A DNA stretch of 33,460 bases, taken from Bacteroidota bacterium. Its GTDB lineage: Bacteria; Bacteroidota; Bacteroidia; Bacteroidales; JAIFNL01. The position numbers and the translations under genes are program-made. The notes below the pieces were generated by a model. It did not search any database and was not told the origin of the DNA. It was given only the letters and a program-made list of their open reading frames with translations. The stretch is taken from assembly GCA_020047755.1 (NCBI GenBank), contig JAIFNL010000286.1, positions 1 to 33,460 of the forward strand. The letters run 5' to 3'. Shown piece by piece: positions 28,646 to 33,460 of this stretch; position 1 is the stretch's first letter, and the number at the start of each line of letters is the position of its first letter.

Positions 28646-28900
28646 TTACTTTTTCTTTCCTTTAGTAGCAGCAGCAATAGAATCTGCTTTTGCTTGTTCT
28701 AAGGCAGCAGCAATAGAATCTGCTTTTACTTTTTCAACAGCAGCGATTGAATCTTGTTTAGCTTGTTCAACTTTTGCAATTGAATCTTGTTTCAACGAAT
28801 CAAGTCTAGCTTGTTCTGCAGCTTGCTCTTCTGCACTTGGACCACATGCAACAAATCCTAAGAAAGTTGCTAATACTGTTAATTTTAAAATCGATTTCAT
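28646..28900 (-). CDS. Small repeat-containing lipoprotein (DSIA repeats)
   Basis: An 84-residue lipoprotein starting at the ATG at 28900 (MKSILKLTVLATFLGFVAC, lipobox Cys19). A longer reading from 28927 would run through the -7 promoter box and is rejected. The mature part is low-complexity and helical, with four related units built on (K)xDSIA: KQDSIAKVEQA, KQDSIAAVEKV, KADSIAAALEQA, KADSIAAATKG, and a basic end GKKK. It could form a charged single helix or coiled coil at the membrane, loosely like Lpp-type spacers; function is unknown. It has one of the best promoters in the window and a terminator, suggesting strong expression. Confidence 0.85.
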   Translation of the reverse strand: MKSILKLTVLATFLGFVACGPSAEEQAAEQARLDSLKQDSIAKVEQAKQDSIAAVEKVKADSIAAALEQAKADSIAAATKGKKK

Positions 28901-28926
28901 AATTATTTTTAAATTTATATATGCCA

Positions 28927-28956
28927 CAAAAGTAAAATAGAAAAATCACTCACAAA
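28927..28956 (-). promoter_or_regulatory. Bacteroidota-type promoter for the DSIA-repeat lipoprotein
   Basis: On the minus strand: TTTG (28953-28956), exactly 18 bp, TACTTTTG (28927-28934), 27 bp before the ATG at 28900. It is a close match to consensus. Confidence 0.7.
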
Positions 28957-31729: not shown

Positions 31730-31759
31730 TTTGCACTTCAAAAATTAGCTTTACATTTG
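31730..31759 (+). promoter_or_regulatory. Bacteroidota-type promoter for the acidic small lipoprotein
   Basis: -33 TTTG (31730-31733), exactly 18 bp, -7 TACATTTG (31752-31759), 31 bp before the ATG. A near-consensus promoter. Confidence 0.7.
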
Positions 31760-31790: not shown

Positions 31791-31985
31791 ATGAAAAAAG
31801 TAAGATTATTTTTATTGGCTTTAGCTGCAGTTAGCTTTATGTCATTCTACGCTTGCAATAGCGCATCAACAGAAGAAGCTACAGAAGAAGCTGCAACAGA
31901 AGAATCAGTAGAAGCTACTGACGAAGCTACTGACGCTGCTGCTACTGAAGAAGCTGCAACTACAGAAGAAACTAAAGCTGAATAA
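31791..31985 (+). CDS. Small acidic low-complexity lipoprotein
   Basis: A 64-residue protein: lipoprotein signal MKKVRLFLLALAAVSFMSFYAC (Cys22) and a mature part of about 42 residues made almost only of E, A, T, S and D (TEEATEEAATEES, TDEATDAAATEEAATTEE). It would be a strongly acidic, probably disordered surface or periplasmic tail. No function is known to me. It has a near-consensus promoter, and the hairpin 20 nt downstream could end its transcript. Confidence 0.8.
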   Translation: MKKVRLFLLALAAVSFMSFYACNSASTEEATEEAATEESVEATDEATDAAATEEAATTEETKAE

Positions 31986-32002: not shown

Positions 32003-32326
32003 ATGAAAGCGGTAAAATTAGCTATTAAGTTAATAGCGGTAATTAGTTTTACCGCTTTTTTTGCGTGTAATAGTAACCCTTCGGGCGAAAACGACACGCA
32101 AAATACTGATTCTATTGAAGTTACAAAACAAAACACCAACAAAAATACCAATTCAGAGCCTAAAGAAACAACCGAAAAAACTACCCCAAAAGATTATACA
32201 GCCAAATACATTTGCCCTATGCACTGCCCCAAAAGCGGAGGTGATAAGCTGGGCGATTGCCCAGAATGTGGCATGGAACTTATTGAAAATCCAACAACTA
32301 AAAAGGTCATTTCGAAGAAAAAATAA
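32003..32326 (+). CDS. Heavy-metal-binding-domain lipoprotein
   Basis: A 107-residue lipoprotein: signal MKAVKLAIKLIAVISFTAFFAC (Cys22), a disordered polar linker of about 45 residues rich in N, T, K and E, then a heavy-metal-binding domain YICPMHCPKSGGDKLGDCPECGMELIEN. This matches the Cys-Pro-Met-His and CPxCGM motif found in copper/zinc efflux proteins and P-type ATPases; an extra Cys follows the His. A role in periplasmic metal binding is inferred from the motif. Its first 20 codons form a terminator-shaped hairpin, so expression may depend on read-through from the gene 17 nt upstream. Confidence 0.88.
   Translation: MKAVKLAIKLIAVISFTAFFACNSNPSGENDTQNTDSIEVTKQNTNKNTNSEPKETTEKTTPKDYTAKYICPMHCPKSGGDKLGDCPECGMELIENPTTKKVISKKK
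32006..32062 (+). terminator. Terminator-shaped hairpin inside the signal-peptide codons of the metal-binding lipoprotein
   Basis: Outer stem AAAGCGGTAAAA (32006-32017) with TTTTACCGCTTT (32047-32058), 12 bp perfect; inner stem GCTATTA (32021-32027) with TAATAGC (32031-32037), 7 bp with a 3-nt loop; then seven T (32056-32062). It starts one codon into the downstream CDS. Confidence 0.75.
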
Positions 32327-32462: not shown

Positions 32463-33460
32463 ATGAATTTAGAACAATTAGCCACTCAAATAGCTCAGGT
32501 ACACGAAACGTTGTACAAAAAAGCGACTTCGGCAGTTAATGTTTCATTGACTCTTCGCAATTGGTTTATAGGATATTACATTGTGGAATACGAACAAAAA
32601 GGCGAAGACAGAGCTAAGTATGGGAAAAAATTAATTCGTACACTTTCCAACAAATTAAAAGGCAAAATAAGCGGCATGTCGTTTACAAATTTGAATATGT
32701 ACCGAAAATTTTATCTGGTATATCCCCAAATTATTCAGGCATTGCCAGAACAATTGAACAACTTAATTATTCGGACAGCGTCCGAACAATTAAGCTCTCA
32801 AAAAATTCAGCCATTAGCAGAACAAAACAATGCCCCAATAATTCGGGCGGCGTCCGAACAATTCTATATATTTGAAAACAAAGTGATTAATGTTTCAGTA
32901 TCTGAAAAATCAAACACAATTGTACCTCCGGCGAAAACACTTACAAAATTATCTTATTCGCATTTAGAGGAATTGATTAAAATTGAAAACCCTTTAAAAA
33001 GAGCGTTTTATGAAGTGGAATGTATCAATGGAGTTTGGAGCACGCGCGAATTGGAGCGACAAATTAATTCGCTGTATTACGAGCGAATGGGCTTGTCGAT
33101 GGACAAAGAAAAACTTAGCCAAATTGCCAACCGAAATGCCGAAACCATTCAACCTATTGATATTATCAAAAATCCATTTACTTTTGAGTTTCTCGGTTTG
33201 CCCGTAAGCATGTTGTTGGAAGAAAATCAATTAGAAAAAGCACTAATTGACAATTTAGAGCAATTTTTGCTGGAACTTGGCTACGGATTTTGTTTTGAAG
33301 CTCGGCAAAAGCGTATTCTTATTGACGATGAGTATTTTTATATCGATTTGGTTTTTTATCACCGCATTTTGAAATGCCATGTACTAATAGAAATAAAAAC
33401 CGAAAAATTTACGCACGAAAATATTGGGCAACTCAATGTATATCTGCAATATTACAAAGA
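32463..33460 (+). CDS. DUF1016 (YhcG-like) PD-(D/E)XK nuclease, 3' end outside window
   Basis: The frame from the ATG at 32463 is open to the window edge (332 codons). The N-terminal DUF1016 domain is recognisable: TLRNWFIGYYIVEYEQKGEDRAKYGKKLIRTLSNKL and GMSFTNLNMYRKFYLVYP. A variable middle carries two copies of a translated repeat (IIRTASEQL, IIRAASEQF). The C-terminal part, SYSHLEELIKIENPLKRAFYEVECINGVWSTRELERQI to FCFEARQKRILIDDEYFYIDLVFYHRILKCHVLIEIKTEKF, holds the nuclease motif: Asp in IDLVFYH and ExK in EIKTEK. Such genes are often found in accessory regions and near restriction systems; the role is not established. Only the last few dozen residues are missing. Confidence 0.9.
   Translation, partial: MNLEQLATQIAQVHETLYKKATSAVNVSLTLRNWFIGYYIVEYEQKGEDRAKYGKKLIRTLSNKLKGKISGMSFTNLNMYRKFYLVYPQIIQALPEQLNNLIIRTASEQLSSQKIQPLAEQNNAPIIRAASEQFYIFENKVINVSVSEKSNTIVPPAKTLTKLSYSHLEELIKIENPLKRAFYEVECINGVWSTRELERQINSLYYERMGLSMDKEKLSQIANRNAETIQPIDIIKNPFTFEFLGLPVSMLLEENQLEKALIDNLEQFLLELGYGFCFEARQKRILIDDEYFYIDLVFYHRILKCHVLIEIKTEKFTHENIGQLNVYLQYYK
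32762..32863. repeat. Two in-frame palindromic repeats within the DUF1016 gene
   Basis: A 27-bp unit occurs at 32765-32791 and 32837-32863 with three mismatches, 72 bp apart and in the same reading frame. The first copy extends to a 33-bp palindrome (32762-32794) with 15-bp arms, one mismatch and a 3-nt centre. Confidence 0.8.

Follow-up and report, generated by a model that had tools for sequence, protein, structure and literature searches.

A candidate leaky terminator inside the signal-peptide codons of a metal-binding lipoprotein gene in a Bacteroidales genus

We found that the start of a gene for a small lipoprotein with a heavy-metal-binding domain (HMBD) contains a hairpin and T-tract with the form of an intrinsic terminator, a few bases downstream of a gene for an acidic lipoprotein. 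The hairpin is not due to chance. It is probably a fixed, leaky operon-internal intrinsic (Rho-independent) terminator that keeps the acidic lipoprotein well above the metal-binding lipoprotein; we infer the termination itself, the level of read-through and the dosage ratio from the sequence.

A terminator-like structure at the start of the HMBD gene

The window (the whole 33,460-nucleotide stretch of DNA that was analysed) contains the following features at this locus.

31730..31759, + strand: putative promoter of the Bacteroidota type, TTTG-N18-TACATTTG, preceding the acidic lipoprotein gene (direct reading)
31791..31985, + strand: gene for the acidic lipoprotein (64 aa), the first of the two (open reading frame; neighbour conservation)
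32003..32326, + strand: HMBD lipoprotein gene, 107 aa (open reading frame; PF19335 profile match)
32006..32017, + strand: outer stem 5' arm AAAGCGGTAAAA, codons 2-5 (Lys-Ala-Val-Lys), identical in three species
32021..32037, + strand: inner stem-loop of 7 bp, GCTATTA-AGT-TAATAGC, whose pairing is not conserved (codon 8 is ATT, GTT or GCA)
32035..32042, + strand: alternative 5' arm AGCGGTAA, identical in three species, pairs with TTACCGCT at 32049-32056
32047..32058, + strand: outer stem 3' arm TTTTACCGCTTT, codons 15-19, identical in three species
32056..32062, + strand: T7 tract, codons 18-20

Reading from the ATG of the HMBD gene (32003-32005), the order is AAAGCGGTAAAA, TTA, GCTATTA, AGT, TAATAGC, GGTAATTAG, TTTTACCGC, T7, GCG and TGT, and the stem and T7 lie wholly inside codons 2-20. 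The 12-bp outer stem is perfect, AAAGCGGTAAAA being the exact reverse complement of TTTTACCGCTTT, and in the inner stem GCTATTA (32021-32027) pairs with TAATAGC (32031-32037). The initial annotation, which had described a perfect 12-bp outer stem, a 7-bp inner stem and seven T in the first 20 codons, was correct to the letter. The first three T of T7 also belong to the outer stem, where they close its base by A-U pairing to AAA at 32006-32008, and U32059 is a potential partner for the G of the AUG. The alternative arm AGCGGTAA forms with TTACCGCT a shorter 8-bp terminator (-10.9 kcal/mol) that shares the outer 3' arm.

As in intrinsic terminators, a stable G+C-containing stem of 12-15 bp (-21.3 kcal/mol) is followed by T7 on the coding strand, at a position shortly downstream of a stop codon, in this case that of the acidic lipoprotein gene (31985). 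From this stop it is 20 nt to the start of the hairpin and 73 nt to its end; the latter distance is ordinary for a terminator, for which species medians range from 37 to 91 nt (PMC12207403). The RNA fold has an energy of -25.8 kcal/mol over 100 nt (z -3.7; 0 of 200 shuffles were as good) and -23.1 kcal/mol over the 64 nt from the ATG (z -4.5). The predicted 3' end of the transcript is at about 32059-32063. A bidirectional terminator was rejected, the minus strand being without a T run.

The HMBD gene product begins MKAVKLAIKLIAVISFTAFFAC and consists of a signal peptide, a lipobox at C22, an acidic/Asn-rich linker and a metal-binding domain at residues 68-96, with a match to PF19335 (heavy-metal-binding domain) that has an E-value of 1.5e-8 (34.9 bits, against a Pfam gathering cut-off of 23.6). 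A misassigned start codon is the usual reason why terminators appear within genes. We rejected this explanation for the HMBD gene, which has no other in-frame ATG, GTG or TTG before codon 73 and whose signal peptide can be aligned with those of relatives, including relatives from other families. The intergenic gap between the two genes is 17 nt and contains no small ORF. The HMBD gene itself is not followed by a clear terminator (-0.8).

The TTTG-N18-TACATTTG element matches the Bacteroidota promoter consensus (PMC7366714), and in an alignment its -7 element TAnnTTTG is kept in all three members of the genus. By eye, there is no TAnnTTTG between the two genes in the window or in G001, another species of the genus. 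We presume that 31730-31759 is the sole promoter of the pair, its function being read from its sequence.

Other genes at the locus were noted in passing. The acidic lipoprotein weakly resembles the NCBIfam PG1828 family lipoprotein (21.1 bits, against a cut-off of 50). Just downstream of the HMBD gene, a DUF1016/YhcG PDDEXK nuclease gene (32463-33458; PF17761 and PF06250) is cut by the end of the window; this neighbour is not conserved, since in G002, the third species of the genus, the HMBD gene is followed by one on the opposite strand. The minus strand at 28646-28927 encodes a further small lipoprotein, which carries repeats of the DSIAKVEQAKQDSIAAVEKVKADSIAAA type.

Rarity of the hairpin

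The background consisted of 955 genes called across 1.35 Mb of the window's genome, 933 of which were scored for a hairpin and U-tract lying wholly within their first 75 nt. The HMBD gene ranks first of the 933 with a score of -21.3; the next gene scores -13.6, and the start of this runner-up is probably misassigned. When the HMBD protein was re-encoded synonymously, using either genome codon usage or gene-start usage, 49 of 20,000 draws (0.25%) reached -21.3. In the same 1.35 Mb, 152 stems of 12 perfect base pairs have a T-rich tail, and four of these are inside a gene on the same strand. Two of the three intragenic stems other than that of the HMBD gene probably reflect wrong start calls, and none of the 152 except the HMBD hairpin is close to the start of a gene with a certain start codon. 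At L084 (3781-3830) and L177 (1330-1430) a terminator-like perfect stem lies near the first-ATG start of a gene, and a later start fits the protein better; thus, first-ATG calls at these two places put the terminator of the preceding gene inside the gene.

Part of the signal comes from the protein. The HMBD signal peptide is the most hairpin-prone among 72 putative lipoproteins (the median of its synonymous versions is -7.4, versus -0.2), so the signal is partly in the amino acids, where K-A-V-K is mirrored by F-T-A-F, and partly in the codons. The strength of the hairpin is within the range of this genome's ordinary post-stop terminators: 195 of 948 genes have a terminator of -10 or below within 120 nt of the stop codon, and 35 of 948 have one of -20 or below. 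Each of the three genus genomes has the 53-nt hairpin once, for which reason we rejected a mobile or repeated element. The arm AAAGCGGTAAAA by itself is mildly over-represented in the 1.35 Mb of sampled contigs (6 occurrences on both strands, versus 1.1 expected).

Conservation within the genus

The genus comparison comprises three species, namely the window's genome (G000), G002 and G001, and no further members are present in the genome collection that was searched. Both G002 and G001 keep the acidic lipoprotein, a gap of 18-21 nt, and the HMBD lipoprotein, whose protein sequence identity to the window is 86% in G002 and 69% in G001. Codons 1-20 are identical in all three species except for codon 8 (ATT/GTT/GCA), which is in the apical inner stem-loop, and the first synonymous change in the genus is at codon 21, immediately past T7. 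Across the three species, codons 2-20 comprise 18 that are identical and none that differs synonymously, compared to 29 identical and 21 synonymously changed codons in the remainder of the gene (Fisher p = 6e-4); this bears out the earlier claim that the same bases are constrained both as DNA and as protein. For comparison, the corresponding codons of the acidic lipoprotein's signal peptide include 11 identical and 5 synonymous (p = 0.016), and in the adjoining TonB-receptor gene all three species share the codon at only 47% of the positions that have the same residue. Gene starts are conserved generally, with a codon identity of 0.74 in codons 2-22 and 0.64 in the rest (80 gene pairs between G000 and G002); a few other genes match the conservation of the HMBD gene over the first 22 codons.

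The inner stem is perfect in the window's genome alone, has one G-U pair in G002, and is mostly lost in G001. Because G001 retains the outer stem and T7, these two elements form the conserved unit. The outer stems are identical in all three species and have zero compensatory changes, so that pairing as such is not proven by this comparison.

The gene pair in other families

By searching 393 genomes across the order, we found that three other families also have the acidic lipoprotein followed by the HMBD lipoprotein, at a distance of 1-18 nt. The upstream gene was seen directly in four genomes (G017, G063, G167 and G085) and apparently in a fifth, G259, where the HMBD gene (L042) has no ATG and seems to start at a GTG a few bases past the acidic gene, which is possibly another route to low HMBD output. 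In the other-family pairs the signal-peptide codons contain no strong terminator; their hairpins range from -4 to -11 kcal/mol and are not significant against synonymous shuffles (p from 0.03 to 0.84). Since other families keep the pair without a significant hairpin, the operon functions without it, and the sequence comparison indicates that the gene pair is old and that the hairpin was gained in this genus. The initial annotation had proposed that free synonymous change destroying the stem in homologues would count against its interpretation: within the genus the outcome is favourable, such change being absent over codons 2-20, and outside the genus the hairpin is missing.

Proposed function and alternative explanations

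In the explanation that we favour, a single promoter 5' of the acidic lipoprotein gene would drive both genes. Most polymerases would halt at about 32060 and leave the acidic lipoprotein gene with a short mRNA that the hairpin protects, and the few that read through would supply the metal-binding lipoprotein. In the read-through mRNA, the hairpin beginning at the G of the AUG would slow the initiation of translation as well, so the second gene would be turned down twice. The setting of the terminator would be fixed, with neither metal nor ribosomes switching it. By energy modelling, the hairpin occludes the HMBD start codon: opening the region from -15 to +15 around the AUG costs 15.5 kcal/mol, the ninth highest value among 935 genes (median 5.0), as compared to 5.1 kcal/mol for the acidic lipoprotein gene. 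As for terminators that set stoichiometry, the two genes are kept together and the second has no recognisable promoter; the hairpin departs from them in location, being in codons 2-20 of the HMBD gene instead of between genes. It is possible, although doubtful, that the amino acids of the signal peptide were themselves selected to hold a nested two-armed terminator that ends the upstream mRNA and gates its own gene's start.

The initial annotation had offered both a low level of read-through and attenuation as roles for the terminator. Low read-through fits the anatomy best, and attenuation, by ribosomes or by metal, gained no positive evidence. In an attenuator, a ribosome starting at 32003 would melt the hairpin and allow read-through, with translation or metal switching the second gene on. 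The hairpin does sit within translated codons, and trailing ribosomes in E. coli are able to prevent terminator hairpins (PMC5021804), but we think this role improbable on several grounds. The start region is occluded by the hairpin itself. The second 5' arm at 32035-32042 would be left uncovered by an initiating ribosome and forms the shorter terminator, so that termination would persist with a ribosome on the start codon. The U-tract is about 57 nt past the AUG, which gives little time for initiation and translation of at least seven codons, and in E. coli a terminator located in a translated leader was still able to reduce expression by a factor of about 18 (PMC5021804). When progressively longer stretches of exposed RNA were folded, no antiterminator appeared, and the local and nested terminator folds were the only ones; nor does the locus have a leader peptide or an Rfam match. 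The lack of an Rfam match also led us to reject a riboswitch.

A purely post-transcriptional role, in which the hairpin protects the 3' end of the processed acidic lipoprotein mRNA or blocks the HMBD start codon with little termination, would account for the occluded start region (ninth of 935 genes), and such a hairpin would stop 3'-5' exonucleases. T7 would be superfluous for either task; it is nevertheless conserved, and synonymous change sets in right at its end, so we give this role little credence. We are similarly sceptical that the hairpin has no function as nucleic acid, being the by-product of a hairpin-prone signal peptide (Lys-rich and then Phe-rich, AAA...TTT) under protein-level selection and general conservation of gene starts. 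That general conservation exists, and 6% of synonymous encodings reach -15 kcal/mol, but the observed strength is reached by 0.25%, and the absence of any synonymous change in 18 codons among three species contrasts with 42% in the remainder of the gene. Furthermore, GCG, which makes up 8% of Ala codons in this genome, is present in both 5' arms, and signal peptides usually vary more than mature parts.

Comparison with known systems

Terminators normally avoid coding sequence. In a full-text literature search with partial coverage, we found no described case of an operon-internal terminator located wholly in the signal-peptide codons of the downstream gene, which is weak support for novelty. 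The proposed double use of sequence is credible and falls within a known class of regulation. If the hairpin terminates transcription, about 55 bases would serve both as a working lipoprotein signal and as the stop signal of another gene. Early codons would then be open to selection for dosage control between operon neighbours, and terminator predictors that mask coding sequence would miss such cases.

The HMBD lipoprotein itself resembles other Bacteroidota lipoproteins with this domain (PF19335), having a domain score above the cut-off, a lipobox and the metal-ligand motif CPMHCP...CPECGM. The upstream neighbour differs between groups: most of the Flavobacteriia and Saprospiria HMBD loci that we examined have a different, larger gene there, and this Bacteroidales group has the acidic lipoprotein. 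With leader-peptide or translated-leader attenuators of the pyrL type (PMC5021804) the locus shares a terminator in translated RNA that is potentially ribosome-sensitive; unlike them, it has no leader peptide or antiterminator, and its alternative fold is a second terminator.

The closest likeness to the fixed leaky terminator that we propose is in cellulolytic Clostridia, where operon-internal intrinsic terminators set the stoichiometry of ABC importers and place the substrate-binding protein above its transporter (PMC9045158). There, too, a stem-loop and U-tract follow the first gene, mostly with no promoter between the genes; the first gene encodes the highly expressed substrate-binding protein, and leaky termination lowers the second (PMC9045158). 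The Clostridia terminators occupy long intergenic regions, whereas in the window the gap is 17 nt, the terminator lies inside signal-peptide codons, and its termination is predicted.
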